Source: Zhongshania sp.
Lineage (GTDB): Bacteria > Pseudomonadota > Gammaproteobacteria > Pseudomonadales > Spongiibacteraceae
Direction of reading: 5' to 3'
DNA length: 64,000 nucleotides
Assembly: GCA_018066965.1 (NCBI GenBank)
Contig: JAGPVP010000044.1
Span: 1 to 64,000 of the forward strand
The position numbers and the translations under genes are program-made. Below are positions 15,106 through 48,803 of this stretch, one piece after another. Below the pieces are notes generated by a model. That model did no database searches and was not told the DNA's origin. It was given only the letters and a program-made list of their open reading frames with translations. Within the stretch, counting starts at the first letter, position 1. Each line of letters opens with the position of its first letter.

Positions 15106-15137
15106 CAATATTCTGCTGGCCAATTTTTAGCGGTACC

Positions 15138-17449: not shown

Positions 17450-17453
17450 CGTC

Positions 17454-20400: not shown

Positions 20401-20564
20401 GCTGCCAAAAAGCCTTATTGCAAGGCCGCATTCTTATGATTAAAGGTAGTGTACAAAAAGCCGCCGCGGGCCATGCTGCCCCAGTAATTCATGTCGTGGC
20501 CTTTAGTATTGAAAGCCAAGACCACCTAATGAGTATTGACACCACATCCCATGACTTTCATTAA
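17454..20564 (+). CDS. dnaE2: Error-prone DNA polymerase III alpha subunit DnaE2
   Basis: Error-prone C-family polymerase (1036 residues) for translesion synthesis. PHP domain at the N-terminus ([21 protein letters not shown]), palm with the catalytic aspartates in [13 protein letters not shown] near residues 375-379, finger region with [25 protein letters not shown] near 720-745, and a C-terminal OB fold ([25 protein letters not shown]). The length fits DnaE2 rather than the about 1160 residues of DnaE1. It is the last gene of the SOS cassette. No clear terminator was seen after it. Confidence 0.95.
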   Translation: [1036 protein letters not shown]

Positions 20565-20756: not shown

Positions 20757-21374
20757 TTGACCCAGAAACCCGTAAAAGTAAGAACGCCGCAAGCAGAGCG
20801 CACCGCCACTATGCGCCAGCGACTCTCTGAGGCTGCATTTGAAGTGATTAAAGAAGTGGGCTATGCCAATTTCCGTACATCTGCGGTTTCAAAAGCCGCC
20901 GGTGTTTCTCAGGGTGCACAGCTCCATCACTTCCCGACCAAAGACTCGCTCACCACCGCCGCAATGGAATACGCCTACGAGCGTGCCCATGGCAATTTTT
21001 TAAAAAATATCAGTGGGTTTTCTGCTAGCGACGATCCTTTAGATGCGGTAATTCAAGACGCCGAAGATTTTTTTATGTCAGACCATTTTATGGTCGCATT
21101 AGATATATTAATGGCCGGCGGCAAGAACACCGAACTCAGAGATGAGCAAGTCCGACTTGCGGTGGCAAGCCGCGCGTCTGTTGAAGAAAGCTGGGTAAAA
21201 AAACTAATTGAACTGGGCTGGCAAAAAGACGACGCTGAAATGATTCTCAGCATGACTTTTTGTCTAGTTAGGGGCTTCGCCATCAAACTGCTGATTAGCC
21301 ACAGCCTCAGTGATTTATCGCCGATGATGACGCAATGGAAAAGTATGGTCGCACTACTTAAGGCGAACCACTAA
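20757..21374 (+). CDS. TetR/AcrR family transcriptional regulator
   Basis: A 205-residue regulator. The N-terminal HTH (MRQRLSEAAFEVIKEVGYANFRTSAVSKAAGVSQGAQLHHFPTKDSL) is typical TetR; the C-terminal half is a helical ligand-binding domain. The start is TTG 20757 with GAGG about seven bases upstream; the next ATG (20811) would clip the lead-in to the HTH and lacks a ribosome site. It is convergent with the acyl-CoA synthetase gene and 190 bases after dnaE2, so its targets are unclear; the neighbouring catabolic operon is a candidate. Confidence 0.88.
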   Translation: MTQKPVKVRTPQAERTATMRQRLSEAAFEVIKEVGYANFRTSAVSKAAGVSQGAQLHHFPTKDSLTTAAMEYAYERAHGNFLKNISGFSASDDPLDAVIQDAEDFFMSDHFMVALDILMAGGKNTELRDEQVRLAVASRASVEESWVKKLIELGWQKDDAEMILSMTFCLVRGFAIKLLISHSLSDLSPMMTQWKSMVALLKANH

Positions 21375-21403: not shown

Positions 21404-21444
21404 AAATCGCCCCTGCTGATGCACTCAACAGGGGCGATTTTGTT
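21404..21444. terminator. Terminator between the convergent TetR and prpE-like genes
   Basis: AAATCGCCCCTG (21404-21415) pairs with CAGGGGCGATTT (21429-21440) around 13 bases, followed on the plus strand by TTGTTT. It serves the TetR gene best; in the leftward direction the T run is poor. Confidence 0.8.
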
Positions 21445-23303
21445 TAGACGCTAACGCCTGTTAGCAAAGGCCGTATTTCTTCTAAAATAGCCGGATCATC
21501 AATCGTTGCCGGTACTTTAACATCTTCGCCATTGGCTATTTTTTGCAGAGTGGCGCGCAAGATTTTACCGGATCGAGTTTTAGGTAAACGTTTAACTACC
21601 CGCGCCTGCTTAAAAAATGCCACCGGCCCAATATGTTCTCGGACCAGCGCAACGACCTCTTGAATAATAGTTTCTTCGCTGCGCTCCACACCAGCATTGA
21701 GAACCAATAAGCCGATAGGAATCTGCCCCTTCATATCGTCGTTAATACCGAACACCGCGCACTCAGCCACGTCTTTGTGAGCGCTAAGTACCTCTTCCAT
21801 CTGCCCTGTAGATAAACGATGCCCCGCCACGTTTATCACATCATCGGTGCGGCTCATGATGTGGACATAGTCTTCGCTGTCGATAAAACCCGCATCGCCG
21901 GCGTTGTAGTAACCGGGGTACTCAGAAAGGTATTTATCGATAAAGCCCTGGTCGTTATTCCACAAGCTTGGCAAGGTGCCCGGCGGTAAAGGTAGGCGCA
22001 CCGCTAAGGCGCCCATTGTACCGGCGCCCACCGTATGCCCCGCTTCATCTAGCACGACCACATCGAAACCCGGCACGGCCTTACCAGATGATCCGTACTT
22101 AACCGGAAACAAACCTAAGCCCGCGCAGTTTGCCACCGCAGGCCAACCCAATTCTGTTTGCCACCAGTGATCTATCACCGGAATATCTAATTGGCGCTCA
22201 GCCCACTGAATGGTATCGGGGTCTGCCCGCTCGCCGGCCAAAAACAATTGCTGCAAGCTAGAAAGATCAAAGTCCTTGGGGCCAAGTCCATTAGGGTCTT
22301 GCTGTTTAATAGCACGAATTGCCGTCGGCGCGGTGAACATGGCCTTCACTTTATGACGTTCGATTAAGCGCCAATATGACAAAGCGTCCGGTGTACCGAC
22401 CGGCTTGCCTTCAAACATAATTGCCGTCGCGCCACGAATAAGCGGGCCATAAACAATATAGGAATGCCCTACCACCCAACCAATATCAGAGGCCGCCCAG
22501 AACACATCACCGGGATTGATGCCGTAGATATTCTCTAAGCTCCAATTCATTGCCACCATGTGGCCGCCGTTGTCGCGAATAACGCCTTTTGGATTACCCG
22601 TCGTGCCAGAGGTATAAATAATGTACAGCGGATCGGTAGCTGATAGCGGCACACACTCGACAGCCTGACCACCGGCCTCGGTTTCTACCCAGTCTAAATC
22701 GCGGCCTTCTTGCATTGCGGCAAGCAATTGCGGACGCTGCAAAATTACACATTTGCGTGGCTTGTTTTGCGCCCGCTCTATCGCTTCGTCTAACAATGGC
22801 TTATAGGCCACCAAACGGCCAGGCTCTATGCCGCAGGATGCCGAAATCACGACCTTGGGTTTGCAGTCATCAATACGTGACGCTAATTCCGCCGCCGCAA
22901 AACCACCAAACACCACCGAGTGAACTGCGCCGATACGCGCACAGGCCTGCATCGCAATAGCAGCTTCTGGCACCATGGGCATATATATTACAACCCTATC
23001 GCCTTTCTCAACGCCCATAGAACGCAGGGCGCCAGCAAAGCGCGACACCCGATCAAGTAGCGCTTTATAAGACCAGTGCTCTACCGTGTCAGTAACGGGA
23101 CTATCGTAAATAATCGCGGTCTGTTCGCCTCGGCCAGCGGCCACGTGACGATCCAAACTATTAAAGCAGGTGTTGCATACACCGTCGCTGAACCAGCTAT
23201 ACAGGGGAGCTTTACTGTCATCTAAGGTAATCTCAGGTTTGCTAAACCAGTCTATGCCGTCAGCAGCCTTTGCCCACAGGCCAATATTCTCATCGTGATT
23301 CAT
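21444..23303 (-). CDS. prpE: Propionyl/short-chain acyl-CoA synthetase (PrpE/ACSS3 type)
   Basis: AMP-forming acyl-CoA synthetase, 619 residues. ACAS_N-like start (SWFSDGVCNTCFNSLDRHV), P-loop YTSGTTGNPKGV near residue 231, and the C-terminal acetylation-site lysine in LPKTRSGKILR. Closest by feature to propionyl-CoA synthetases, which also accept isobutyrate-type acids. Position matters: it is the last gene of the meta-cleavage operon, where the ring-fission hydrolase releases a short acid (isobutyrate from p-cumate, propionate from an ethyl side chain). That is the likely substrate. ATG 23303 follows GGGAG. Confidence 0.85.
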   Translation of the reverse strand: MNHDENIGLWAKAADGIDWFSKPEITLDDSKAPLYSWFSDGVCNTCFNSLDRHVAAGRGEQTAIIYDSPVTDTVEHWSYKALLDRVSRFAGALRSMGVEKGDRVVIYMPMVPEAAIAMQACARIGAVHSVVFGGFAAAELASRIDDCKPKVVISASCGIEPGRLVAYKPLLDEAIERAQNKPRKCVILQRPQLLAAMQEGRDLDWVETEAGGQAVECVPLSATDPLYIIYTSGTTGNPKGVIRDNGGHMVAMNWSLENIYGINPGDVFWAASDIGWVVGHSYIVYGPLIRGATAIMFEGKPVGTPDALSYWRLIERHKVKAMFTAPTAIRAIKQQDPNGLGPKDFDLSSLQQLFLAGERADPDTIQWAERQLDIPVIDHWWQTELGWPAVANCAGLGLFPVKYGSSGKAVPGFDVVVLDEAGHTVGAGTMGALAVRLPLPPGTLPSLWNNDQGFIDKYLSEYPGYYNAGDAGFIDSEDYVHIMSRTDDVINVAGHRLSTGQMEEVLSAHKDVAECAVFGINDDMKGQIPIGLLVLNAGVERSEETIIQEVVALVREHIGPVAFFKQARVVKRLPKTRSGKILRATLQKIANGEDVKVPATIDDPAILEEIRPLLTGVSV

Positions 23304-23339
23304 TATTATCTCCCAGCCGAGTATCCGCCAATCTAAACA

Positions 23340-24119
23340 CTATATGAAATCAAGTGCCAATGAACCAATCCCAGAAATATCCAACGACATTTTATCTCCG
23401 GGTTTTACGTACTCTAATGGCACCAAAGAGCCCGATAAAATAATGTCGCCTTTACTTAAGCTGATACCGTATTCACCAAGGGTATTAGCCAGCCACGCCA
23501 CGCAGGTAAGCGGATTGCCCAAAGCTTCTGCGCCGGTGCCAAAACTTAGCTTTTCACCATTTTTCCACACCTGCATTTCACAATTAATTAAATCCACTTT
23601 TTTGGGATCAATCGCGGCGGCAGAGTTAACGGCGAAATAACCGCAGGAGGCATTGTCTGCCACAGTGTCTTGGATTTTAATCTTCCAATCAGCAATACGA
23701 GAATCAACAATTTCAAAACACGGCATCACCGCTTCTGTTGCTGCCAATACGTCCGCCTCGGTAACTCCCGGCCCTTTAAGGTCACTACTCAGCAGGAAGG
23801 CGATTTCACCTTCGGCGCGTGGTGCAATCATATCGCTTAAAGACAACTCACCGTCGCAGACCATTTTGTCGGTCAGAAAACCAAAATCGGGCTGCCGCAC
23901 ATTGAGCATAGATTGCACAGCGTTACTTGTAACACCGATTTTCTTGCCAATGAGTTTCTCGCCATCGGCCTCGCGCATCGCCAACATATTCAACGATATG
24001 CGATAGGCGTCATCAATACTGATATCAGGATACCGCGTGGTCAAAGGCGATACCGCCTTAACATCGCGTAGTGAACGATATAACTCGGTACTAATATCCT
24101 GCAGTTGCTGCTGATTCAT
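23340..24119 (-). CDS. 2-keto-4-pentenoate hydratase (CmtF/MhpD type)
   Basis: Hydrates 2-hydroxypenta-2,4-dienoate-type products of meta-cleavage to 4-hydroxy-2-oxo acids. A 259-residue fumarylacetoacetase-fold protein. EGEIAFLL with the metal-binding Glu residues lies near residue 103, and the LGNPLTCVAWLANTLGEYGISLSKGDIILSGS block near 200-231 is characteristic. It lies between the dioxygenase beta subunit gene and prpE in the operon. The family role is firm; the exact side chain is inferred from the operon. Confidence 0.88.
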   Translation of the reverse strand: MNQQQLQDISTELYRSLRDVKAVSPLTTRYPDISIDDAYRISLNMLAMREADGEKLIGKKIGVTSNAVQSMLNVRQPDFGFLTDKMVCDGELSLSDMIAPRAEGEIAFLLSSDLKGPGVTEADVLAATEAVMPCFEIVDSRIADWKIKIQDTVADNASCGYFAVNSAAAIDPKKVDLINCEMQVWKNGEKLSFGTGAEALGNPLTCVAWLANTLGEYGISLSKGDIILSGSLVPLEYVKPGDKMSLDISGIGSLALDFI

Positions 24120-24152
24120 ACTTGCTATTCCAATGCATGTTTATAAAACGAC

Positions 24153-24665
24153 TTACAAAATAATACTGATCTTAGCCTGTGGCCTTAAGCCATCTAAGGC
24201 GAGCGAACAGGTTTTTTTACAGATCTTTAATTGACCATCAAGGTCCACCAGTTCGTATAAATAGCAGCCCATAAACATATCCGTGCTGCCATTTTTAGAC
24301 CGGTAAATAACAAATGACGCGCTCACAGATATTCGGCCATTTTCAAGACTGTCATTAACAATAATATTGCTAACCACGTGCTGAACTTTTGAACGTGGAA
24401 ACTCTGCATGACAGGTTTTTTTCTCTAGCCGAGTTACCCGTTCATTCATCCGGCCACGGTTATCTGCAATGTAGTAAAGGTGCTTGGTAGGGTCCGCTTC
24501 GGCTGCGGGTACATCCGTCGGCGGCACATAGTAGCTGGCATCTTCTGTATACAGCGCCAACCAATCTTGCAGACGCCAATCATCCAAACTCTTTGCTTCT
24601 TCATTGAGCAACTTTTGGATACGGAAGTATTGAAACATTTCTTGCAAATCAGACTCGCTAGCCAT
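24153..24665 (-). CDS. Aromatic-ring-hydroxylating dioxygenase, beta subunit
   Basis: Small, non-catalytic subunit (170 residues, NTF2-like/SnoaL fold) of a Rieske dioxygenase, with the family motif IADNRGRMNERVTRLEKKTCHAEFPRSKVQHVVSNI near residues 66-101. It follows the alpha subunit by three bases and starts at ATG 24665 with GGAG upstream. It should form an alpha3beta3 hexamer with the neighbouring alpha subunit. By operon content it corresponds to CmtAc. Confidence 0.9.
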   Translation of the reverse strand: MASESDLQEMFQYFRIQKLLNEEAKSLDDWRLQDWLALYTEDASYYVPPTDVPAAEADPTKHLYYIADNRGRMNERVTRLEKKTCHAEFPRSKVQHVVSNIIVNDSLENGRISVSASFVIYRSKNGSTDMFMGCYLYELVDLDGQLKICKKTCSLALDGLRPQAKISIIL

Positions 24666-24668
24666 CGC

Positions 24669-25928
24669 TTACTTCTCCTCTAATTCGCTGATACGACGAT
24701 TCCACTCACGCCAGAATGCGCGCATCTGTAACTCGTCATCAAATGAGGGAACTGCCGCTTTCATACCCTTAGAAATATCATTCCACGGTGCATTGGCGGC
24801 GGACTTAAATCCGTTCTGGCATTGCTCTAAAGCCTCGACATCGTCTGGCGTAGCAAAACCACCGGGGCCTATAAATTCAAGGAAGTTAGATAGGCGATAT
24901 TCGCGTCGCCAATCACTTTCACCTACCACGCCCATTGCAAAGCCATTGACCATCATTGAGTTTGGTGAGGTTGGGTAAAATGTGCGTACCGTAATCGCCA
25001 TAATGTCGTTGACGACCAAGTTCGGGAAAATGATCATATTGCGGTTTTTAGTTGCGATCTTCTCAGCGGTTTCGGCACCAACACGCCCCACCAACTCATC
25101 GTAAACCTGATCTATTTCTTTCTTACCGTCTTCTCCCCACATAGGTATCCACTGCGCTACCGGACGCCCCCACGGCGCGCTGTATTCGATAACAGCGTGT
25201 CCATTCCCTAGATCATAGCCTTTGCCGGCAAGGCGAGTCGCCGTTAAACCGCCATTGGTATTCATTAAATAATCTAGGTAGGTAGCGTGAGTGGATTCTG
25301 CGTGATAGCCATCAACACTGTTTTCAACCAATAACTTCCAATTGGCTTGAATAGAGTATTCTTGAGTACCACCAATAATTTCCATGCCCTCAGAAGACTG
25401 CGCGGCAACTACATCCAAATATTCTTTGGAGCCAGCCAAGTAATCTTCAAGGGGCTCTACGTCTTTATTAAAGCAAATAAAGTAAAACCCAGCGTACTGT
25501 TCCATTCTTGGCACGGGACGCAGATTAGAATCTTCGCTTTCTTTAAAGTCTTTGCTATAGGAATTTTCGCCAGAAAGGTGGGCTAGCTCGCCGGTATTTT
25601 TAAATACCCAGCCGTGGTACATACACTGAAAGGTTTTGGCCTTGCCGCGCTTCTCTCTACACACGGTAGAGCCGCGATGAGGACACACATTAAACAAGGC
25701 GCGAATCACATTGTCGCGACCGCGAACAAATAGAATATTCTGATCTGCCACCGTGCGCGCCACAAATGCACTGGCTTCCTTCAGTTCTGATTCATGACCC
25801 AAGTACAACCAGCAATTTTGAAATATTAAATCGCGTTCTTTCTCGAACACTTCCTGACTGGTAAACGTTTCACGCGCAACTTTAAAGCGCCCGCCGTCCC
25901 GATCATCGATAATATAAGGAGTTTCCAC
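24669..25928 (-). CDS. Aromatic-ring-hydroxylating dioxygenase, alpha subunit
   Basis: Catalytic subunit that cis-dihydroxylates the ring. Rieske ligands are in CPHRG and CMYHG (Cys82, His84, Cys102, His105 from my start). The mononuclear iron site is DGYHAESTH (His209, His214), with a later Asp. I start at GTG 25928 because GAGG lies eight bases upstream; a GTG at 25937 is possible. The operon also encodes the ferredoxin, cis-diol dehydrogenase, extradiol dioxygenase and a class II aldolase-family protein, which points to a benzoate-like substrate attacked at C2-C3 (p-cumate type, CmtAb). Substrate assignment is inference. Confidence 0.9.
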
Positions 25929-25973
25929 GTCAACCACCTCACGCTTTTGGATTTAAGGAATTAATTTTTATTT

Positions 25974-26753
25974 TCACACTACAAAATGATATAGCTCTAA
26001 CTCAGCGTCATCATCATCCACAATGCCACCGTTTAAATTGTTAACAGATCCTACCAGCGTTTCACTGACCCTATCTGTTTCTGGATCACCGGCGGTTAAA
26101 TAACGCCACATACGCTCGAACACACCAATCTTGACCTGCCGGTCACGGATTTCGTCGTCAGACAACACGCCTGCCTCAGGTATAAAGTTGGCGCTGCGCA
26201 CGCTTAACTCTAGCCGCGCCGAATCTTCTAAAAACCACGCATAAGACACCGCTTCTTCTATCGACTCGCCTACCACTACCGAACCGTTACCCCGCATGAC
26301 CAAGGCCGTTGCCGAGCCCATCATATCCGCGAGGGATTGCGCACGATCATCGTCACGCAACAATCTAGGATCAGCCCATAGCGGTATATTGTTTTCAAAA
26401 TACGCACTCAAGCCATGCCGACAAGTCGGTGTTAAACCTTGCGTAGATAGCGCCATTACCGCCGGCGACATAATGCGACACACGGCTTTAATTTCTGGGC
26501 GACGCTGGTAAATCGCTTGATGAATTCTCACCTCGCCCAGCACGCCATCGGGCAAAGGCCCCCTTACCGAAACTGAGGTATTCGTTTCTCCCGCGGCAAT
26601 GGTGCCCATCGGCTGGGGAGCGCACACCAAAAACTGCTCGTCATCCACTCTTACACTGCAGTGACCAAAGGCGTGTACCAATCCAGCGCGACCCAATGCT
26701 CTGGCCCCCATACGCAGCTTGATGTGTTGCGTGTTTATTGCTGTTTGCGTCAT
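25974..26753 (-). CDS. Class II aldolase/adducin family protein, probable ring-fission-product decarboxylase (CmtD-like)
   Basis: About 259 residues of the class II aldolase/adducin fold, with metal-site segments HAFGHCSVRVDD, EVRIHQAIYQRRPEI and NGSVVVGESIEEAVSYAWFLEDSARLE. In the p-cumate pathway of Pseudomonas putida F1, a member of this family (CmtD) decarboxylates the ring-fission product that still carries the ring carboxylate. Its place inside a full meta-cleavage operon makes that role likely here. ATG 26753 is preferred (GGAA upstream) over GTG 26762. The alternative is a sugar-type aldolase unrelated to the pathway. Confidence 0.75.
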   Translation of the reverse strand: MTQTAINTQHIKLRMGARALGRAGLVHAFGHCSVRVDDEQFLVCAPQPMGTIAAGETNTSVSVRGPLPDGVLGEVRIHQAIYQRRPEIKAVCRIMSPAVMALSTQGLTPTCRHGLSAYFENNIPLWADPRLLRDDDRAQSLADMMGSATALVMRGNGSVVVGESIEEAVSYAWFLEDSARLELSVRSANFIPEAGVLSDDEIRDRQVKIGVFERMWRYLTAGDPETDRVSETLVGSVNNLNGGIVDDDDAELELYHFVV

Positions 26754-26834
26754 GTTTTCCACGTGTCAGTTATTTATTATTTACTCGCGTGACTCGTCTA
26801 ATCCCAGCCTTAAGCTAAGCCGCGAAACTTATTC

Positions 26835-27878
26835 TCAGCCCGTCGCGCTTACAGCCTCAGCGGCAGCATTTTCCTTGGCCATTGTTAAGGCCAAATCTTC
26901 AATCATATCTTCTTGGCCGCCAACCGTGCCGCGACGCCCTAGTTCAACAAGAATATCTCTTGCTGACACGCCATAGCGCTGCTCTGCGCGTTTTGCAAAA
27001 AGCAGAAACGAGCTATATACACCCGCATAACCAAGAGTGAGCGCGTCACGATCAATACGTATTGGGCTATCCATCATGGGTACGACGAGGTCCTCAGCTA
27101 CATCCATGATTTTGTATAAATCTATGCCGGTTTTCATGCCCATACGATGTAAAACCGCGACCAACACTTCTAGCGGGGTATTGCCTGCCCCAGCCCCAAG
27201 TCCAGCCACAGAGCCGTCAATCCGCGCAGCGCCCGCGTTAATGGCGGCAACCGAGTTAGCCACGCCCATCGCAAGATTGTGATGACCGTGAAAACCAATC
27301 TCGACGTTATCTGGCAGGCCATTTCTAAGCGTAGATATTTTCTCGGTGACTTCGTCTGGCAACATAAAACCCGCCGAGTCTGTGCAGTAAAGACAGTTAG
27401 CGCCGTAGCTCACCATTAGCTTTGCTTGTTCTAATAAGGCGCCTGCAGAAATCATATGCGCCATCATCAAAAAGCCAACAGTGTCTAAACCCAGCTTTGC
27501 TGAGTAGGCGATATGTTGCTGAGACACGTCAGCTTCTGTGCAATGAGTTGCGACTCTTAAGGTGCTTACGCCACAGGCCTGCGCCATGCGAATGTGGTCA
27601 ACCGTACCAATTCCCGGCAATAGCAGGGCCGACACTTTTGCCTGTGTCATTTTGGGGATAACCGCATTGAGATATTCTTCGTCGCTGTGCGCCGGAAAAC
27701 CATAGTTAACCGACGCGCCACCCAAGCCGTCACCGTGAGTGACTTCTATTAGCGGCATACCCGCAGCGTCTAATGCCGTTGATACCGCAACCATTTGCTC
27801 AATGGAAATCTGATGGCGTTTTGAATGCATGCCATCACGCAGGCTCATGTCATGCAATTTCACAAATTTATTTGTCAT
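26835..27878 (-). CDS. 4-hydroxy-2-oxovalerate aldolase (DmpG/MhpE/CmtG type)
   Basis: Pyruvate-forming aldolase, 347 residues, DRE-TIM barrel. [13 protein letters not shown] carries the R-D catalytic pair, [17 protein letters not shown] has the H-x-H metal ligands, and the C-terminal DmpG communication domain ([28 protein letters not shown]) binds the dehydrogenase partner. That partner is the next gene upstream, as is usual for this channelling pair. ATG 27878 has AAGG eight bases upstream; a GTG at 27887 is less likely. Products are pyruvate and acetaldehyde (or a homologue). Confidence 0.92.
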
Positions 27879-27927
27879 ACTCTGCACCTTTCACTGGTCG
27901 GCTATTACAAGGTAGCGGCGTAAATTA

Positions 27928-28830
27928 TTAGGCCGTAATAGCACTCGCTTCCGCGAGCTTTTGGGCAATCATTTCTGCTGTGCGCAATGCTGCCGCCGTC
28001 ATGATATCGAGGTTGCCAGCATACTTAGGCAAATAATCACCCAGCCCCTCAACTTCCATATACATAGAGACGCGCTGGCCATCAAATACCGGCCCATTCA
28101 CCAAGCGATAGCCCGGCACATAGCGCTGAACTTCACTTACCATTTCATGCACCGATGCGGTAATGGCGGCTTGATCAGCCTCGCCTTCAACCAAGCAGTG
28201 AATGGTGTCGCGCATAATGAGTGGCGGCTCAGCAGGGTTAATCACGATGATCGCCTTACCCTGTTTCGCACCGCCTACCTTCTCCACCGCGCTAGCGGTA
28301 GTACGGGTAAATTCATCAATATTGGCGCGAGTACCCGGACCAATTGAACGCGAAGATACCGTCGCAATAATTTCTCCGTAACTAACCGCTTGCACCCGCG
28401 ATACCGCCGCCACCATCGGAATAGTCGCTTGACCACCGCAAGTGACCATATTGACGTTTTGAATATTGCCTTGGCTCAAGGCGTTTAAATTAACGGGAGG
28501 AATACAATAAGGACCAATTGCCGCAGGTGTGAGATCGATCATCGTCACCCCAAGCTCATTTAGCTTGCGACTATTTTCAGCGTGAACATAGGCAGAGGTC
28601 GCATCGAAGGCGAGAGTAATACCATCTGCTTTAATAAATGGCAGCACGCCATCCACGCCCTCTGCACTGACTTTAATGCCCATTTCTGCAGCGCGTTTTA
28701 GACCGTCGGACTCGGGGTCTATACCCACCATCCACACCGGCTCAACCCACTCGGAACGCAGCATTTTTATCAACAAATCAGTACCGATATTACCGGGACC
28801 AATAATGACTGCTTTCAGCTTCTTATTCAT
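27928..28830 (-). CDS. Acetaldehyde dehydrogenase (acetylating) (DmpF/MhpF/CmtH type)
   Basis: Converts the aldolase product (acetaldehyde or propanal) to an acyl-CoA using NAD+ and CoA. A 300-residue protein with an N-terminal Rossmann motif ([17 protein letters not shown]) and the catalytic Cys in [21 protein letters not shown] near residue 132. It is encoded just ahead of its aldolase partner. ATG 28830 follows AGGTG. Assignment is firm from motif and context. Confidence 0.92.
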
Positions 28831-28872
28831 ATTTCACCTATGATTAATCCTAGAATATTGAGAGATCAATAT

Positions 28873-29706
28873 TTAAAGAATCAAAAAACTTTTTACTAAG
28901 TTCGAAAATTCAGCCGGCTTTTCAACTTGAGTCCAATGCCCGCATTCACCGTATATATGTATCTGTGAATTTTTTATTAGGCGATGTGCTTTGATGGAGT
29001 TTTCCATTGGCACGATGACATCTTCTCGGCCATGAACCATCAAGGCCTTATGCTGAATTTGTGCGATTTCGTCTTCAGGTATACCCAAGCCGTCCAGCTT
29101 TTCTTGCATGGGTTCTGGGAATAACTTCTCGTAAGCTTCTTGGTAGCCGGGGCGAATACTAGCTTCATAGCGCGACTTGATAATTTCTTCGCTGACCAGA
29201 TCTTGTCTATACGCAAAAATAGACATTAGGCTGCGCATTGCGTCTACCGAGGGTTTATAACCCCACACTTCACGCAGGCCATCGGTTATTTCAAAATGAA
29301 TACCCGCAGCGCCCATCATTACGAATCGGTCAACACGCTCGCCGTGGCGTGCGGCCATGGCAAGACTAATTGCACCACCAAAGGAGTTACCCACAAAATG
29401 CGCTTTATCAACCTTAATCGCGTCCATGAACTGGCACATAAACCGCAACCAGTTATCTAAATTGTATTCAAAGCCGTCTGGGTTGTCGGTATAGCCAAAA
29501 CCAATAACATCCGGTGCAATCACGTGAAAATCATTTTCTAAAGCTGGAATAAGCAAACGCCAATTAGCGTAAGCCGTTACACCTGGGCCTGAACCGTGTA
29601 ATAAAATCACGGTGGGATTACTGCGGTCACCCGACTCTAAATAGTTCGCTTCGTAGCCGTCTGCCAATTCAACTCGTTTGCCCATTTCCGGATTCTGCGT
29701 ACTCAC
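28873..29706 (-). CDS. Meta-cleavage product hydrolase (alpha/beta fold; CmtE/BphD type)
   Basis: C-C bond hydrolase that splits 2-hydroxy-6-oxo-dienoates into 2-hydroxypentadienoate and a short acid. A 277-residue alpha/beta hydrolase: oxyanion motif HGSGPGVTAYANW, nucleophile elbow GNSFGG with Ser108, acid in VHGREDVIVP, and His in GECGHWTQVEKP. The HGSGPG motif is characteristic of MCP hydrolases. The start is GTG 29706 with GGGGTGA upstream. If the substrate is p-cumate-derived, the acid released is isobutyrate, which the PrpE-like enzyme could activate. Confidence 0.9.
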   Translation of the reverse strand: MSTQNPEMGKRVELADGYEANYLESGDRSNPTVILLHGSGPGVTAYANWRLLIPALENDFHVIAPDVIGFGYTDNPDGFEYNLDNWLRFMCQFMDAIKVDKAHFVGNSFGGAISLAMAARHGERVDRFVMMGAAGIHFEITDGLREVWGYKPSVDAMRSLMSIFAYRQDLVSEEIIKSRYEASIRPGYQEAYEKLFPEPMQEKLDGLGIPEDEIAQIQHKALMVHGREDVIVPMENSIKAHRLIKNSQIHIYGECGHWTQVEKPAEFSNLVKSFLIL

Positions 29707-29748
29707 ATATCACCCCACTGTTATGAATTAGCTAAATTTAATTTTCTA

Positions 29749-30111
29749 TTAATCTGGTTTTTGAAACCGCTTAACACGCGGATTAATGTAGAGATCTCCG
29801 TCGATCAGCTGTGTTTCAAAGCATCTTAGTGGCACCCGACACGGCATAGTCAATGCTGCCCCTGTGCGCACATCAAATGTGCCGTTATGCCAAGCGCATT
29901 CAAGAATATGGCCGCTCAATTCGCCTTCGTCATAAAACGATGCCGCGCCATGAGTGCAGCGATCTACCGCCACAAAAAATTCGCCTTCCACATTAAAAAT
30001 AGCGAGGTCCATCCCACCGGGATGCTTTGCGGTGCCTATTTCGCCAACCGGCACTTCGTCTGCTTTGCAGAGAAAGGCCCAGTCATCGCTACTTGCAATT
30101 ACGTCGTTCAT
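29749..30111 (-). CDS. Rieske-type ferredoxin component of the ring-hydroxylating dioxygenase
   Basis: A 120-residue Rieske ferredoxin that passes electrons from a reductase to the dioxygenase. Ligands are Cys52/His54 (RCTHG) and Cys72/His75 (CAWHN). ATG 30111 is chosen (MNDVIASSDDW, GGAAGG upstream) over GTG 30123. It sits between the hydrolase and cis-diol dehydrogenase genes. No reductase gene is in this operon; the XylA-like reductase at 45422-46489 is the nearest candidate. Confidence 0.9.
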   Translation of the reverse strand: MNDVIASSDDWAFLCKADEVPVGEIGTAKHPGGMDLAIFNVEGEFFVAVDRCTHGAASFYDEGELSGHILECAWHNGTFDVRTGAALTMPCRVPLRCFETQLIDGDLYINPRVKRFQKPD

Positions 30112-30134
30112 TATTCCTTCCACACTCGTATTAT

Positions 30135-30908
30135 TTACAGCATCGTACTGCCGCCGTTAACACTAATAACCTGACCGGTTACAAATGCGGCTGCATCGCT
30201 TGCTAAATACGCCACCATAGACGCAACTTCTTCGACTTTTGCGGCGCGGCCGACGGGAATTACGCTAAGTAATTTCTCCGCTGTTTGCGGGTCGCGCTCG
30301 ACAAAATCTTTGAGCGCAGCAGTTTGTACCGCGCAAGGAGCTACCGTGTTGACAGTAATATTGTCAGCAGCAAATTCTCTTGCCAAACCTGTAGTCATAC
30401 CGTGAACACCGCCTTTGGCGGCGTTATAGGCTGCATGCGCCCACAAGCCATTGCGCACAGAATCTGCACCAATATTGATGACCCGACCAAAACCCTGTTC
30501 CTTCATTTTGGGTAGCACACACCAACTACACCAAAGGGCAGTCCACAGGTTTCTGTCTACCGTTTGCATCAGGGTTTCTGGCGTGTGTTCAAGAAAGGGA
30601 CGAATAATTCCGCCGCCCGCGTTATTCACCAGAATATCTACCCGCTGATATGTCGTCAGGGCAAAATCTAACAGCGCTTCTGCACCGGCCTGCGCCGACA
30701 AATCGGTGGCATAAGCCGATACCGTATAGTTAAGCGCGCTCATTTCAGCACTTAGGTCTGATAATTTCTCTTGCGATAAATCGCTGAGCACTACCGCCAC
30801 ACCGGTATCCGCAAGTGCGATGGCAATGGCCTTACCGATATCACTGCAAGCACCAGTTACAATGGCGACCTTGCTGGCCGTAATGTCTTTCATATCACTC
30901 ATTAACAT
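30135..30908 (-). CDS. SDR oxidoreductase, probable cis-dihydrodiol dehydrogenase (CmtB-like)
   Basis: A 257-residue short-chain dehydrogenase: nucleotide motif TGACSDIG, NNAGG, catalytic Tyr/Lys in YNAAK, and C-terminal GQVISVNGG. In the operon it should oxidise the cis-dihydrodiol to the catechol. The start is uncertain: ATGs at 30908 and 30902 overlap the upstream dioxygenase gene, while ATG 30893 (MKDITASKVAIVTG) just clears it and gives the usual SDR N-terminus. The overlap indicates translational coupling. Confidence 0.87.
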   Translation of the reverse strand: MLMSDMKDITASKVAIVTGACSDIGKAIAIALADTGVAVVLSDLSQEKLSDLSAEMSALNYTVSAYATDLSAQAGAEALLDFALTTYQRVDILVNNAGGGIIRPFLEHTPETLMQTVDRNLWTALWCSWCVLPKMKEQGFGRVINIGADSVRNGLWAHAAYNAAKGGVHGMTTGLAREFAADNITVNTVAPCAVQTAALKDFVERDPQTAEKLLSVIPVGRAAKVEEVASMVAYLASDAAAFVTGQVISVNGGSTML

Positions 30909-31821
30909 CTGGCCCCGCTATTTCACCGCGCTTACAAAATTCGGGCTTTGGCATGCCACCCCACAAATCCATGGTTTGCGCGCTGTTTTCTAACATACGC
31001 GCCTCACGTGGATCTTCTTCTGGGAACTCTTCCATGCCAAAACTGAATTCGGCAGTCATACCATCTGGATCTAAGAAATAAAGAAACACACTGCCAGATG
31101 GCATGTGACGACCGGGGCCGAAAACAATATCCACCCCCGCATTAGTTAATCTATTTCTAGCACGGCCCACATCATCAATTTCACTGACCATAAAGTTAAC
31201 GTGGTGCAAACCTGGGGTGTCGCTTTTCACCATCGCAAAGCTATGATGAAAGGGATTGGGGTAGCAACGTGCCCATACTGCTTTATCGACAACAAAGTCT
31301 GACGGCAGCAAACCGAAATCCTTGTTCATTACCGCCCACGCCTCATCTAGCTTGTCGGTACGGATAACGACATGACCCAAACGTTGAATTTTTGCCAATG
31401 ATTGATCCAGCGCTTGCGGTGGCTCAATCATGTTGTCGATGTACTCGAATGTAACACCTGTGACTGGCTCGAATACTCGGAAGCCCCGAGCAATATTCAA
31501 GAATCCAATTTCTGTAGCAGGGATATCCCAGCACTCATAAGCCCGCGACTGAAAGTGCGCTTTCGCCAAATCTAAGTCCGCCGAGGACGCGACCTGAAAA
31601 CAGACTCTACGCAGCCCCGCCGTTTCGCTCTGATAAAGCACCAGACTCATCGCATACTGATCACAGCGCAAACCGACCTTCTCACCCTGCTGCTCTACAT
31701 GTACATTTAAGCCGAGTAATCCGCTATAAAAGCCAATTGATTTTGTTATATCCCTTACATTTAACGCCACATACGCAAGGCGCTTATACATAAAGGGAAG
31801 GCTTTGTAATGGGGTGCTCAT
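30895..31821 (-). CDS. Extradiol ring-cleavage dioxygenase (VOC superfamily; CmtC-like)
   Basis: Fe(II) extradiol dioxygenase, 308 residues, with two VOC modules. The iron ligands in the second module are His150 (GHVVIRTD), His206 or His207 (LHHVNF) and Glu258 (TAEFS). It would cleave the catechol made by the dioxygenase and dehydrogenase (2,3-dihydroxy-p-cumate type). It is the first gene of the 11-gene leftward operon. ATG 31821 has a GGG ribosome site. Assignment to extradiol cleavage is firm; the ring substituents are inferred. Confidence 0.9.
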   Translation of the reverse strand: MSTPLQSLPFMYKRLAYVALNVRDITKSIGFYSGLLGLNVHVEQQGEKVGLRCDQYAMSLVLYQSETAGLRRVCFQVASSADLDLAKAHFQSRAYECWDIPATEIGFLNIARGFRVFEPVTGVTFEYIDNMIEPPQALDQSLAKIQRLGHVVIRTDKLDEAWAVMNKDFGLLPSDFVVDKAVWARCYPNPFHHSFAMVKSDTPGLHHVNFMVSEIDDVGRARNRLTNAGVDIVFGPGRHMPSGSVFLYFLDPDGMTAEFSFGMEEFPEEDPREARMLENSAQTMDLWGGMPKPEFCKRGEIAGPDVNE

Positions 31822-32129
31822 AATTCTGCCCTGCTCGTTTTCTTATCGTTAAGGTCCGAGAAGCGTTTCGATAGCAATATGTGATGCATCATTGCGCATG
31901 TATATCTCGGGCCAATAAACAAACCGTGTAAACGCATCGTAAGTTAAATAAAGAGTGGGGTCAACGGTAACTAACAAATATTATGTCGCTTTAAATAGGC
32001 CCGAATTATCGTGTAGTTTTAGACGTATTTACGGCTAAGAATGTAGCACACTTTACGCATGCTACATAATCGAGAAAGGCTCTCTTAAACAAGTTTGGAA
32101 CTGAAGTCACACAGTAAAAAATCTAGCGC
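31822..32129 (-). promoter_or_regulatory. Promoter/operator region of the meta-cleavage operon
   Basis: A 308-base gap with a plausible leftward sigma70 promoter: TTGACC (plus 31959-31964), 17 bases, TACGAT (plus 31936-31941). Two symmetric sites flank it. ATGTAGCA (32041-32048) faces TGCTACAT (32060-32067) across 11 bases upstream, and TGATGCATCA (31882-31891) lies downstream of the expected start. Either could bind a regulator. No cymR-like operator sequence or regulator gene is seen here. Confidence 0.45.
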
Positions 32130-32615
32130 TTAGCTTGCAGCTAATAAATTTGCCACGTCAACTAACTCGCTTGGCTTGCTATCAAAACCCATGGGGCTAA
32201 ACCAGCTACGCCCCGCCACGCTGTGTTGACGAGCATATTGCATTAGCAATACCGAAGATTCGCGTTTAAAGCCGTCACTCACATCGCATTGCGCCATCAA
32301 GCGCTCCAATGCAAAGGCCACCTTAGCAGTGTCATTTGCTGTCACCGCAGCGCGAAGGTCTATTAGCTTTTCATCGCTTAGCGACTCCGACTCAGCCAAG
32401 GCAAGCAAGCGCGTAGCACAAGCCATTAAATGGCGAGCGTTATAATCGACAAGCTCACGCTCACGACCATCCTGCGCCATCAGGGCCGCAATATGACCAA
32501 TCAATAACTGGCTTTGCTCCTGCGCCATAGACTCGCTAGCGGGAATCGCCGGTAAAATAATATCTGTCATCGCACGCATCATGGTACTTAAGCGCAACTG
32601 GGATGATGGATTCAT
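32130..32615 (-). CDS. Small partner protein of the adjacent phosphotransferase (DUF6285-like, tentative)
   Basis: A 161-residue, mostly helical, soluble protein without known catalytic motifs. I start at ATG 32615 (MNPSSQLRL), which has AGGAGG seven bases upstream and begins two bases after the phosphotransferase stop. The pairing of an APH-type kinase with a small helical protein recalls LvaA-LvaB of levulinate catabolism in Pseudomonas putida and the DUF6285 family beside acyl-CoA-linked phosphotransferases. I recall this from family layout and could not verify it. It may stabilise or position the kinase. Confidence 0.65.
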   Translation of the reverse strand: MNPSSQLRLSTMMRAMTDIILPAIPASESMAQEQSQLLIGHIAALMAQDGRERELVDYNARHLMACATRLLALAESESLSDEKLIDLRAAVTANDTAKVAFALERLMAQCDVSDGFKRESSVLLMQYARQHSVAGRSWFSPMGFDSKPSELVDVANLLAAS

Positions 32616-32616
32616 A

Positions 32617-33768
32617 TTATGCCTCCTCAAGTAAGCAGATAAGTTGATCCACAAAGGCATAGCCCGCCGCCGTTAACCAGCTCAACAATATATCTTGGTG
32701 GCTATGTTTATTGCCGGCGGTGCGCGCCGATGTCGCCAAACAGATCACAACGCATTTATAAACGCTTAGTACTTGATAAAAATGCAGTGCTTTTTGATCC
32801 ACCGCACGCCCCGTCATCTCGGTATACCGCGCGCACAATTCACTTAGCGGCATTAAGCCAGAGGCAAGCACCTCACCACTGCTGGTTTTGCCTTGATGAC
32901 AGGCAATCCAGCCAAGGTCTTCGTGATAGTCGCCAATATGGGCAAGCTCCCAATCGAGAATGGTGGTGATCTTTTGGCTTTGTTCATCGAACAGGTAATT
33001 ACCGGTTCGATAATCCGCATGCACAATCACTAGCTCTGAGGTCTCTGGCAGATTGTCGCGCATCCAGCGCTCCGCCAAACCCATAATCGGCACGCCTTCA
33101 ATAGCGTCGTCTTGCCATGCACTGGCCCACCAATTCAACTGCCATCTCGCCGCCTGAAACCTGTCCTGATCCGGGGTCTGAAATACCTGACCATCATCAA
33201 AGTCAGGACTTATCTCGTGCATTATCTGCAGGTATTTCAAAAACTCCTTCGACAAACCTTCGCGAAAGGGCTCGCTGATTAGCGTGCCCAAGCCCGAGAC
33301 ATTACCCGCGTTATCGCTGGGCTTCGTCACACCACCGATGAAGCCAGTGATCAAGGCGGGCCGCCCCAAACGCTCCCCCGTTAAATCTGCCCACAGCACC
33401 GGTGGCACAGGTAATTTGTCTGCCACCGCACGCATCACGCCAAACTCTTTAGCGCGATCAGTTACCACCGCACTTTCCAATGGGTCCATACGGAGCACGC
33501 ATTTTCTAACAAAGGTATCGTCGGAATAGAGATCGAAGACAAACTGCTCCTTCGAGGCCCCGCCACCCATCCGCTTAAAGCCTTCAAGTTGGGGGGCAAC
33601 AACGCCCTCTTCCGCTAAAAATCCCAGCAGGATTGGCGCCATTTGCTCTGGGCTTCGTGGCTCATATACACCCTTTTCTCTCGCGCTAAAATTATTCTGC
33701 AACATGGCTTGGATACTGGGTTCAATATCCACCCCCGATGCTAGCGCCGCCGCTACACTTGACTTCAT
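32617..33768 (-). CDS. Phosphotransferase family protein (APH/choline-kinase fold)
   Basis: A 383-residue kinase-fold protein. VIVHADYRTGNYLF has the catalytic Asp (Brenner motif HxDxxxxN) and DWELAHIGDYHEDLGW the Mg-binding Asp. Members linked to acyl-CoA metabolism (ACAD10, LvaA) phosphorylate hydroxyacyl-CoAs before phosphate elimination, which would suit this setting, but the substrate is unknown. ATG 33768 (MKSSVAA) has GGTGA six bases upstream; the GTG at 33780 is less likely. It is tightly placed between the CrtC-like gene and the small partner gene. Confidence 0.85.
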   Translation of the reverse strand: MKSSVAAALASGVDIEPSIQAMLQNNFSAREKGVYEPRSPEQMAPILLGFLAEEGVVAPQLEGFKRMGGGASKEQFVFDLYSDDTFVRKCVLRMDPLESAVVTDRAKEFGVMRAVADKLPVPPVLWADLTGERLGRPALITGFIGGVTKPSDNAGNVSGLGTLISEPFREGLSKEFLKYLQIMHEISPDFDDGQVFQTPDQDRFQAARWQLNWWASAWQDDAIEGVPIMGLAERWMRDNLPETSELVIVHADYRTGNYLFDEQSQKITTILDWELAHIGDYHEDLGWIACHQGKTSSGEVLASGLMPLSELCARYTEMTGRAVDQKALHFYQVLSVYKCVVICLATSARTAGNKHSHQDILLSWLTAAGYAFVDQLICLLEEA

Positions 33769-33780
33769 TTTTGTCACCAC

Positions 33781-34710
33781 CTATTTATTATTTACGTATT
33801 CGATAAGGCTGTTCATCCACAGCACTTCGCAACAACCACCGCCTTTCACGCCGTCGATATGCGCAACAATGGGTGATTCAAACAAGGTAATCATCGGGTC
33901 TGGGCAAAGCGGGAAGGTTGCGTAGGCAACGCCTTGAAAGGTAGTCGTTCGGCCAGCAGAATCGTAAATAGTGGCGTGCACGGTGCGAGTTTTTAAATCG
34001 TCATTTATTTCTAAATCAATATCGACATCAACCACCTGTGCAATGTGTTGGTCTTTGTCTACAAAGCCGCGAATCAGGGTTTTACCCATCGACTCTAACT
34101 TCCAAAAATGGACACCCAGCTCTGGCCCAGCTTGAGCATGAACCCATTTCCAATGCTGGTTCAAACCCCAGTCACGAACACCCCAAGAGTGGTCGCGCTG
34201 CGCATAGCCTTGCAAGGCTATTTCACGACCGCCCACTTTAACGTAGCCAGACACCAAACCATGCTGCTCAAAGCGGTCATGCGCTATCCACTGCGGGCAA
34301 CCGTCTTTATGGCTGCTGTAAGCGTAAGCCGGCTGGGTGGCAGTGAAATTATATTCAATATCGAATAGCTCAGATTTGTAGCTGATCGAGGCGGTTTCTA
34401 ATAACTCACCCAGACGGAAATGCAGATTCTTAACCCGCCAATCAAAGAAGTCGGCATCCGGCGACATCGCAATGCCGTCAAATTTTTCCAGTAACGGCTC
34501 TGGCCCTATACCGGGGCCATAAAGCGTGACCGCGCTACCCGCAAGGCCTTCGCCATTAATCCAAGTATAAATAAACCCGCCAATTTGCTCTTCGGGGATT
34601 TGAATCATATACGCCATCGACTCGCGGGCCAGCGGCCCTGTTCCGAGTTTATGGCGATTATCGTGTATGGGGTCTAAAGCGCGAATATCGGTGGTTAGCG
34701 TTCTTGTCAT
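33781..34710 (-). CDS. CrtC/AttH-like hydratase-fold protein (DUF7064/DUF7065 type, tentative)
   Basis: A 309-residue soluble protein rich in beta strands. The motif GYAQRDHSWGVRDWG near residues 167-181 resembles the central signature of the lipocalin-like CrtC/AttH group (carotenoid 1,2-hydratases and relatives). The first half resembles the DUF7064/DUF7065 pair seen beside phosphotransferases. No function is assigned. It is the first gene of the three-gene leftward unit with the kinase and its small partner; ATG 34710 has AAAGG upstream. Confidence 0.65.
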   Translation of the reverse strand: MTRTLTTDIRALDPIHDNRHKLGTGPLARESMAYMIQIPEEQIGGFIYTWINGEGLAGSAVTLYGPGIGPEPLLEKFDGIAMSPDADFFDWRVKNLHFRLGELLETASISYKSELFDIEYNFTATQPAYAYSSHKDGCPQWIAHDRFEQHGLVSGYVKVGGREIALQGYAQRDHSWGVRDWGLNQHWKWVHAQAGPELGVHFWKLESMGKTLIRGFVDKDQHIAQVVDVDIDLEINDDLKTRTVHATIYDSAGRTTTFQGVAYATFPLCPDPMITLFESPIVAHIDGVKGGGCCEVLWMNSLIEYVNNK

Positions 34711-43737: not shown

Positions 43738-43851
43738 ATTTTTGTCCTGATAATATTTGCGTTAAATGCTCGGCATTCCGCGCAGGATTTTATTATTTAC
43801 TTCCTGCAGAGCTTGCGCCGCAGGAAGTAACACTTAGAGGGGTTTTAAAAC

Positions 43852-45321: not shown

Positions 45322-45421
45322 AATCCGTTCCTGTTCTTATTTAATGAGTTATTAAAACTATAAATAGCTTAGGCTGAGTGCTTACCAGTATTAAGCGATC
45401 AGCGCCAAGCCGCACCTAACT

Positions 45422-47858: not shown

Positions 47859-47887
47859 TAGCATCGTCAACACAGAGAGATAACATC

Positions 47888-48769: not shown

Positions 48770-48803
48770 GTAAGCTACACGCCTTTATTTGGAGAAAAAA
48801 ATA

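Follow-up and report, generated by a model that had tools for sequence, protein, structure and literature searches.

A CmtAb-type operon of Zhongshania with a terminal acyl-CoA synthetase, probably for p-cumate or a similar 4-alkylbenzoate

What compound would the long leftward gene cluster of this Zhongshania contig degrade, and how closely does it follow the p-cumate pathways already described? We analyzed a stretch of 64,000 nucleotides (the window) from an assembly assigned to Zhongshania (Spongiibacteraceae), a cold-marine, oil-responsive genus for which one study, in the excerpt available, covers alkanes and some monoaromatic dioxygenase genes and does not name cymene or cumate (PMC8478444). 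Our preferred reading, to which we give odds of roughly three in four, is that the cluster is an operon for the breakdown of p-cumate (4-isopropylbenzoate), the acid that arises from the plant scent compound p-cymene, or of a closely similar 4-alkylbenzoate. p-Cumate itself is the likely substrate, and other 4-alkylbenzoates are possible ones. The operon is a reshuffled version of the known p-cumate pathway, and it would place a p-cymene/p-cumate-type route in this genus.

An eleven-gene operon conserved in Spongiibacteraceae

The window contains eleven minus-strand open reading frames at exactly 21444-31821, with intergenic gaps of -14 to +72 bp (Table 1). Profile searches found the expected domain in each of them, and the eleven leftward genes proposed in the sequence-only reading were thus borne out. 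The gene order is C B Ad E H G D Ab Ac F SYN, and the identical gene set and order occur at seven other Spongiibacteraceae loci (L011, L012, L014, L015, L144, L146 and L147). For comparison, the cmt locus of Paraburkholderia xenovorans LB400 was pinpointed using the cmtAb primers and a cymAb primer given in the excerpt of PMC5224996; its order is Aa Ab Ac C B Ad D CymR E F H G. The earlier expectation that the order would differ from that of the Pseudomonas cmt operon therefore held against LB400, the comparison with P. putida F1 being drawn from the literature. All enzyme classes of the LB400 and F1 cym/cmt systems except the reductase are present in the Zhongshania operon. A TetR regulator lies beside it, and its putative operator may be of the CymR type. 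Unlike LB400, the Zhongshania operon has a CumD-type hydrolase, a synthetase inside the operon, and no CmtAa.

These differences affect how the operon should be named. It had been described as a complete cmt operon, and the other enzyme classes are indeed there, but the ferredoxin reductase CmtAa is absent from the operon and its nearest homologue in the genome (37% identical to LB400 CmtAa) is on another contig (G000:C94:25504-26694), so we do not call the operon complete. Because the hydrolase is of the CumD type and not the CmtE type, we refer to a CmtAb-type variant rather than to a cmt operon in the LB400 sense.

Table 1. Features of the window, in order of position
Feature	Position	Strand	Evidence
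TetR regulator, CymR-like, convergent to operon	20757..21374	+	PF00440; 31% to LB400 CymR
Terminator-like hairpin between operon and tetR, 12-bp stem, loop 13	21404..21440		read by eye
Short-chain acyl-CoA synthetase, PrpE-like, AMP-binding	21444..23303	-	5gxd 890 bits; PrpE models below cut-off
CmtF-like 2-hydroxypenta-2,4-dienoate hydratase	23340..24119	-	37% to LB400 CmtF; TIGR03220 357 bits, below cut-off 409
CmtAc-like dioxygenase beta subunit	24153..24665	-	46% to LB400 CmtAc; PF00866
CmtAb-like dioxygenase alpha subunit	24669..25937	-	61% to LB400 CmtAb; clade 100/100; Rieske and iron-ligand motifs retained
CmtD-like class II aldolase-family decarboxylase	25974..26762	-	PF00596; 58% to LB400 CmtD; clade 99/96
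CmtG-like 4-hydroxy-2-oxovalerate aldolase	26835..27887	-	TIGR03217 537 bits (cut-off 286); 52% to LB400 CmtG
CmtH-like acylating acetaldehyde dehydrogenase	27928..28830	-	TIGR03215 464 bits (cut-off 282); 58% to LB400 CmtH
C-C hydrolase, CumD type	28873..29706	-	CumD 1iun 323 bits; 27% to LB400 CmtE
CmtAd-like Rieske ferredoxin	29749..30123	-	36% to LB400 CmtAd; PF00355
CmtB-like cis-dihydrodiol dehydrogenase (SDR)	30135..30908	-	54% to LB400 CmtB; PF13561
CmtC-like type I extradiol dioxygenase (2,3-dihydroxy-p-cumate 3,4-dioxygenase role)	30895..31821	-	PF00903 74 bits; 40% to LB400 CmtC
Conserved operator-like block over -10 of TTGACC-17-TACGAT promoter-like site	31916..31946	-	alignment of upstream regions
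176-aa protein, no Pfam match, third gene of DUF7064-APH module	32130..32660	-	conserved neighbour of APH
APH-family kinase, candidate tertiary-alcohol kinase	32617..33780	-	PF01636; 9fsg (25-hydroxy steroid kinase) E 3.4e-10
DUF7064/7065 protein, candidate phosphate-eliminating lyase	33781..34710	-	PF23212; VIA Z 24.5 to 25-phosphosteroid lyase
Alcohol dehydrogenase, aldehyde dehydrogenase, CymAb-like reductase (possible upper pathway)	42634..46489	-	reductase 46% to LB400 CymAb; families

Kinship of the ring dioxygenase and the class II protein

The alpha subunit falls in a clade of 25 rows together with CmtAb of LB400, a demonstrated p-cumate degrader, and the LB400 BenA, BphA and AndAc-like rows fall outside it. 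The placement of this subunit had been set beforehand as a possible refutation of the p-cumate reading; it groups with CmtAb at 100/100, apart from the benzoate and biphenyl oxygenases. The tree omits 62 of the 91 loci examined, at which no alpha subunit aligned over 300 residues, and its outgroups are 11 of the 19 LB400 oxygenase matches, with ethylbenzene dioxygenase not among the rows. In the class II tree, for which all 93 rows were kept, the CmtD-like protein lies in a clade of 24 rows that contains all 22 alpha-linked rows and LB400 CmtD. Grouping with sugar aldolases had been the second possible refutation, and it did not occur: FucA and AraD are far from the CmtD-like protein.

What the sequences show is which genes are present, how they are related, and that their order and the upstream block are conserved; the substrate, the individual reactions, the regulation and the synthetase role are inferred from this, and for p-cumate would run as follows. 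The dioxygenase, made up of the alpha and beta subunits, the ferredoxin and a reductase from outside the operon, would add hydroxyls at ring C2-C3, and the CmtB-like SDR would rearomatize the ring. The extradiol enzyme would then open it, and the CmtD-like protein would strip the ring carboxylate after ring opening. The CumD-like hydrolase would release a short branched acid (isobutyrate if the substrate is p-cumate), leaving a remainder that the hydratase, aldolase and aldehyde dehydrogenase would convert to pyruvate and acetyl-CoA. The terminal synthetase would turn the released acid into a CoA ester for valine-type catabolism, and the CymR-like TetR repressor would act on an operator overlapping the promoter.

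The hydrolase and the choice of substrate

Among solved structures, CumD is the best relative of the hydrolase; the substrate named for it (2-hydroxy-6-oxo-7-methylocta-2,4-dienoate) is shared with CmtE. The match covers residues 5-274 and includes the nucleophile motif (GNSFGG, vs GNAFGG in the solved chain, which we take to be a mutant at the nucleophile position). LB400 CmtE scores 57 bits with CumD, vs 323 bits for the operon hydrolase, which by sequence is CumD-like and no CmtE orthologue. Hydrolases of the CumD type were found in 20 of the 25 members of the alpha clade and the CmtE type in four. The wider CmtAb clade is not defined by a CmtE-type hydrolase; in this sample the CumD type is the commoner form, and the LB400 CmtE type is one branch. 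CumD belongs to the cumene pathway, which, unlike the one proposed here, is not known to involve a ring carboxylate or a CmtD step. A literature search for p-cumate together with CumD returned no match. An HsaD-type hydrolase acting on a bulky side chain, as suggested by NCBIfam, was ruled out, as HsaD entries scored about 123 bits.

The same chemistry could instead be directed at another 4-substituted benzoate (p-toluate, 4-ethylbenzoate, or 4-isobutyl- or 4-isopropenylbenzoate), in which case the synthetase would receive acetate, propionate, isovalerate or methacrylate. CumD-type hydrolases may also accept methyl or ethyl ketones, which keeps p-toluate and 4-ethylbenzoate among the candidates, and the synthetase is nearest to propionate ligases. 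The low identities of CmtC, CmtF and CmtAd (only 36-40% to LB400) and of the hydrolase (27%) count against our preferred reading, as does the lack of CmtAa in the operon, and the gene set of L008, a plasmid cluster related to this one, suggests a different side chain: a CmtAb-type alpha subunit (60%), an amidohydrolase, no class II aldolase found, and upstream genes for a carboxyl-transferase, a biotin-carboxylase, an enoyl-CoA hydratase and an acyl-CoA dehydrogenase. Against this, the best relative of the hydrolase is an isopropyl-ketone hydrolase, the operator-like block appears CymR-like, and CymAa-like genes occur at 8 of 15 CmtAb-type loci vs 2 of 65 controls, the controls including L049 and L072 although their D protein falls in the CmtAb-linked clade. 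We consider another 4-substituted benzoate unlikely.

The class II aldolase gene had been regarded as the key clue to the substrate. Its kinship with CmtD stood, and the specificity of the family for p-cumate did not: according to the excerpt of PMC6362003, DhbB of the 2,3-dihydroxybenzoate pathway is also a class II aldolase and acts on a 3,4-cleaved carboxylated product, and a CmtAb-type alpha subunit was not seen in the fetched stretch of 65 of the 80 class II loci. Here the argument is carried by the tree and not by family membership. A 2,3-dihydroxybenzoate route fed by phthalate, salicylate or benzoate and using a decarboxylase of the DhbB type would fit the class II protein taken alone, but we judge it very improbable, as the D protein lies inside the CmtAb-linked clade, the alpha subunit groups with CmtAb, and no hydroxymuconic semialdehyde dehydrogenase was found among the eleven genes. 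A pathway of the biphenyl or ethylbenzene type, including an unrelated sugar-type aldolase, would agree with the generic family matches; it was ruled out for practical purposes by the position of alpha outside BphA (in a tree without ethylbenzene dioxygenase rows) and the distance of D from FucA and AraD.

The terminal synthetase

A propionyl-type synthetase for isobutyrate or propionate had been proposed. The enzyme does resemble propionate ligases, but it misses the cut-offs of the PrpE NCBIfam equivalog models (TIGR02316, 664 of 827 bits; NF007815, 709 of 955), and isobutyrate, propionate and methacrylate are therefore all possible substrates. It has Ala before Gly-Glu, like 5gxd and 2p2b (the latter presumably the V386A mutant of acetyl-CoA synthetase), and 2p2f has Val there; a literature search on this Acs residue found nothing. 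Valine-type genes on C93 include one that scores 337 bits (cut-off 274) for the 3-hydroxyisobutyryl-CoA hydrolase subfamily and one for a 3-hydroxyisobutyrate dehydrogenase (422 bits, cut-off 292). No CoA-acylating methylmalonate-semialdehyde dehydrogenase scored over cut-off in the same genome or in seven relatives; its place might be taken by an acylating dehydrogenase of SauS-like type that is encoded in the C93 cluster.

CymE of P. putida F1 is an acetyl-CoA synthetase described as having an unknown role in the excerpts of PMC5224996 and PMC4097962. Likened by description only, it too is a protein of the acetyl-CoA-synthetase type associated with p-cymene/p-cumate genes; it sits in the upper cym operon of F1, whereas the synthetase here is inside a CmtAb-type operon. 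The terminal synthetase suggests CoA activation of the released acid as a candidate role for CymE, and would give the unexplained synthetase partner of the p-cumate pathway a testable function. For this activation, CmtAb-type pathways seem to have taken on synthetases of at least three types. A close CmtAb (E < 1e-120) was found in 1 of 398 Pseudomonas genomes, and the synthetase linked to it is MbcS-like, under that model's cut-off, and not CymE. Sphingomonad CmtAb-type clusters, such as that on a Sphingopyxis macrogoltabida plasmid (L004), have the alpha subunit (57%), a CumD-type hydrolase, CmtD and TetR in common with the operon, but their genes are distributed over divergent transcription units. 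In L004 there is a PrpE-like synthetase as well (58%), and no ferredoxin match was obtained; in L034 and L056 the synthetases belong to other families.

The regulator and the upstream block

The operator-like block, found by alignment, is conserved in all eight Spongiibacteraceae upstream regions compared and appears to resemble the CymR operator. With a matrix made from Spongiibacteraceae only, the published CymR operator came out as the top site (16.6 bits) in a 20.6-kb stretch of LB400, and 0 of 200 shuffles of that stretch reached this score; one set of 50 shuffles of L012 gave 16.9 bits, above the LB400 site. No site over 13 bits was found in L142, L004 or L007. With two mismatches allowed, the operator core had 12 sites in the genome vs 9 for a reversed control, and we therefore count only the exact site at the operon. 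No inverted repeat of at least 8 common to the compared upstream regions was found. The promoter-like site (31964-31936) is of a kind that shuffles also yield (16 found vs 20.2 expected), and the loop of the terminator-like hairpin is outside the limits of the terminator scan. The tetR neighbour is retained at L011, L015, L146 and L147. A 728-aa gene near tetR in L153, considered as a TonB receptor, was rejected and is a molybdopterin oxidoreductase.

Possible upper pathway genes

In L014, L015 and L144 the operon is directly adjoined by CymAa-like hydroxylase genes, and L014 has a FadL/TodX-type porin there as well. The CymAa homologue nearest to these operon-adjacent genes is cut at a contig end. 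The CymAb-like block of the window, at which no copy of the operator was found, was rejected as proof of an upper pathway for the operon: Z. aliphaticivorans has this block (98-100% identical) plus a second, operator-bearing block beside its operon. The block may serve another purpose, perhaps the DUF7064 module, near which its genes lie in L187 and L188.

A candidate module for tertiary alcohols

The DUF7064-kinase pair upstream accompanies the operon at seven of the eight Spongiibacteraceae loci compared. The fold of the DUF7064 protein matches 25-phosphosteroid lyase over 277 residues (rmsd 3.0, 14% identity), and since AttH (Z 23.6) and pericyclases (Z 22-23) have the same fold, a lyase function stays a candidate. 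For the kinase, 3ats (Rv3168) and 9o56 score higher in phmmer than 9fsg; its structural model is poor (pLDDT 45), and its fold matches served only for reading entry titles. The pair thus recalls the 25-hydroxysteroid kinase and 25-phosphosteroid lyase of Sterolibacterium denitrificans, the kinase by sequence and the lyase by fold. It differs in that the Zhongshania host has oxygenases and that the kinase and lyase genes are adjacent; in S. denitrificans, the surroundings of the kinase gene yielded no candidate for the lyase, according to the excerpt of PMC8449060.

We tentatively suggest, with more doubt than confidence, that the DUF7064, APH and 176-aa genes form a general module for ATP-dependent dehydration of tertiary alcohols in aerobes. 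The kinase would phosphorylate a tertiary p-menthane alcohol and the lyase would expel phosphate to give an alkene, which accompanying oxidation, CoA-ligase and beta-oxidation genes and the operon would degrade. If so, a steroid strategy known from a denitrifier would extend to monoterpenoids, and if the ring acid carried a 4-isopropenyl group, methacrylate would be the acid freed by the hydrolase, from which the synthetase would make methacrylyl-CoA directly. The arrangement may point to phosphorylation-based opening of tertiary alcohols beside terpene-type genes. The alcohols proposed for the module are p-cymen-8-ol, alpha-terpineol or 4-(2-hydroxy-2-propyl)benzoate. The 176-aa gene is retained beside APH in L011, L012, L015, L182, L187, L188 and L007.

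The operon and its kinship with the p-cumate pathway

We read the operon as a CmtAb-type pathway for 4-alkylbenzoates, with p-cumate as its most likely substrate. All eleven minus-strand genes that a sequence-only reading had placed at 21444-31821 were found at exactly those coordinates and carried the domains it had named, with intergenic spacings of -14 to +72 bp. That reading was right in substance. It was wrong to call the operon complete, since the ferredoxin reductase CmtAa is absent, and it leaned on the class II aldolase family as a clue, which alone is non-diagnostic. The kind of pathway is already known; its arrangement and its host are new.

Published work (PMC5224996) describes growth of Paraburkholderia xenovorans LB400 on p-cymene and on p-cumate, with cmtAb transcribed in either case. 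We recognized its cmt locus among 80 class II loci, taken from genome contigs as the best 80 of 254 relatives found, as it carries a cymAb primer and the two published primers for cmtAb. The alpha-subunit tree comprises 41 sequences, 11 of them LB400 outgroups. In it the window protein falls in a 25-row clade with LB400 CmtAb (support 100/100), and the BenA, biphenyl-type BphA and AndAc-like rows fall outside; long branches among the outgroups were flagged by the tree builder. Outgroup labels came from NCBIfam, with BenA above its cut-off and AndAc and GbcA below theirs, and BphA was assigned by length, replicon and an HcaE-like match. The Rieske and iron-ligand motifs of the window alpha subunit are intact. 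The class II tree, built from 93 proteins, puts the window protein in a CmtAb-linked clade, far from E. coli FucA and AraD. This 24-row clade (99/96) takes in each of the 22 class II proteins that are linked to a CmtAb-type alpha subunit; the other two are Nevskiaceae with no CmtAb-type alpha subunit in the stretches fetched. By these placements the alpha subunit groups apart from the biphenyl type, in a tree that holds no ethylbenzene dioxygenase, and the class II protein groups apart from the two sugar aldolases; neither outcome named beforehand as counting against the reading was seen.

Two further CmtAb-type clusters were seen: a second one in genome G010 (L145:147-18001), with CymAa, CymAb, two dehydrogenases and a reductase, and one on a Pseudosulfitobacter plasmid (L008:6201-28847), with an amidohydrolase and adjoining carboxyl-transferase and biotin-carboxylase genes. 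CmtD was looked for in both clusters and not found.

Comparison with LB400 and distribution

Identity between window and LB400 proteins is 61% for Ab, 58% for D and H, 54% for B, 52% for G and 46% for Ac, and lower for C (40%), F (37%), Ad (36%) and E (27%); the TetR protein is 31% identical to CymR. The gene order is C B Ad E H G D Ab Ac F SYN (the synthetase) in the window, whereas in LB400 it is Aa Ab Ac C B Ad D (CymR) E F H G. The nearest CmtAa homologue in the window's genome (37%) is on contig C94, close to another oxygenase. The hydrolases also differ: that of the window is of the CumD type (323 bits to 1iun), whereas LB400 CmtE scores 57 bits to CumD. Over the alpha clade, in stretches of unequal length, 20 rows have the CumD type and four the CmtE type, with none found in one; the four form a single branch (94/92, slightly below the tree tool's strong-support mark). 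Because both types are named for the same isopropyl-bearing ketone, an isopropyl substrate is supported, short of proof.

The assembly comprises 3.66 Mb in 127 contigs (84% complete), and the window spans the opening 64 kb of contig C113. The closest named loci, in Zhongshania marina ZX-21 and in Z. aliphaticivorans BC9_2A, encode alpha subunits that share 97% identity with that of the window. Distribution in the genus is patchy, since a close alpha subunit (E < 1e-200) was found in 7 of the 17 other genomes searched. Elsewhere in the window, one gene set (14967-20564) holds a UmuC/ImuB-type polymerase (PF00817) and a DNA polymerase III alpha subunit (PF07733), resembling imuAB-dnaE2 mutagenesis cassettes.

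The synthetase and the released acid

The best solved relative of the synthetase is 5gxd (890 bits), followed by acetyl-CoA synthetases from 435 bits down; the protein scores below the PrpE cut-offs. At the residue before Gly-Glu, which differs between 2p2b and 2p2f (Ala or Val), it has Ala, like 5gxd. This is the position of the propionate-favouring V386A change. Synthetases linked to the 25-row clade are PrpE-like in nine rows, MbcS-like in three and another AMP-binding protein (25-27%) in six, with none found in seven, LB400 among them; the two tested of the six (L034, L056) resemble 3-(methylthio)propionyl-CoA ligase, below its cut-off. AMP-binding genes occur at 11 of 15 CmtAb-type loci and at 6 of the 65 remaining class II loci. 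In Pseudomonas putida F1, the acetyl-CoA-synthetase-type protein CymE is associated with the p-cymene and p-cumate genes (PMC5224996, PMC4097962). We infer that the CmtAb-linked synthetases serve to activate the acid that the pathway releases. A valine-type cluster on contig C93 of the same genome could use isobutyryl-CoA; no methylmalonate-semialdehyde dehydrogenase reached its cut-off in this genome or the seven relatives searched. A SauS-like acylating dehydrogenase belongs to this valine-type cluster (L169:4500-10155).

A conserved operator-like block and the possible upper pathway

A 31-bp block overlapping the -10 of a promoter-like site lies upstream of the operon in all eight Spongiibacteraceae regions compared. 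With a matrix built from these eight sites, the best site in the LB400 stretch is the published CymR operator (16.6 bits), a score reached by none of 200 shuffles of that stretch (top 16.0). Because shuffles of locus L012 reached 16.9 bits, the score is modest when taken by itself, and it is the coincidence of place that carries the argument. Locus L013 has a 23-bit site; none above 13 bits was found in L142, L007 or the Sphingopyxis macrogoltabida plasmid L004.

Z. aliphaticivorans has a second copy of the 31-bp block (45.9 bits) between synthetase and tetR, with genes for a TonB receptor, a 120-aa protein, a CymAb-like reductase and aldehyde and alcohol dehydrogenases downstream. The matrix search found no copy at the window's CymAb-like block (42634-46489). 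CymAa-like hydroxylases adjoin the operon at loci L014, L015 and L144, and such genes occur at 8 of 15 CmtAb-type loci versus 2 of 65 controls. The nearest counterpart of those beside the operon in the window's genome, a CymAa homologue 70% identical to that of L144, is truncated where contig C33 begins.

A candidate kinase and lyase module beside the operon

Genes of the module beside the operon
Feature	Position	Remark
DUF7064 protein	33781-34710	directly upstream of operon
APH-family kinase	32617-33780	directly upstream of operon
DUF7064, APH kinase and 176-aa module	32130-34710	directly upstream of operon; candidate tertiary-alcohol kinase and lyase pair

The DUF7064 model (pLDDT 69) best matches 25-phosphosteroid lyase (Z 24.5, rmsd 3.0, 277 residues, 14% identity; Foldseek 8.9e-12), with AttH and same-fold pericyclases matching nearly as well. 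That lyase is also the top row of a sequence profile search, yet with E 0.06. The kinase matches 9fsg, entitled 25-hydroxy steroid kinase, at 3.4e-10 by sequence, with Rv3168 and 9o56 higher. As described in two reports, kinase and lyase of the steroid pathway dehydrate a tertiary alcohol in tandem (PMC8449060, PMC11061730), and the kinase hardly accepts small tertiary alcohols (PMC8449060), so a terpene kinase would need a different pocket. We tentatively suggest, with more doubt than confidence, that the module might carry out ATP-dependent dehydration of tertiary alcohols, kinase first and then lyase leaving an alkene, on substrates that may be of the p-menthane type.

All four DUF7064 genes found in the incomplete window genome adjoin an APH-type gene. 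Of eight Spongiibacteraceae loci, seven have the three-gene module along with the operon: three carry it upstream and four on the far side of tetR. A search of 54 kb of genome G011 did not find it. DUF7064 occurs at 4 of 15 CmtAb-type loci versus 0 of 65 controls (p = 0.0009), although three of the four are Spongiibacteraceae and so non-independent. In genomes G010, G014 and G015 the module is followed by ligase, hydratase and SDR genes like those that the window has at 47.9-51.2 kb, in the latter two by CymAb-like and dehydrogenase genes as well; given this shared succession, these look like one gene set.

The window stretch 46806-55473 holds genes for a double-bond reductase, SDR, enoyl-CoA hydratase, acyl-CoA ligase, MarR, acetoacetyl-CoA ligase and CoA-transferase, possibly for monoterpenoid catabolism; SDR, hydratase and ligase genes of these types come after the DUF7064 module at L182, L187 and L188. 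At 58234-60807, a kinase-like gene (APH-type by eye) lies beside an acyl-CoA dehydrogenase gene. The module's APH protein has a match to the kinase-dehydrogenase protein ACAD11, so this gene pair might act on hydroxyacyl-CoAs.
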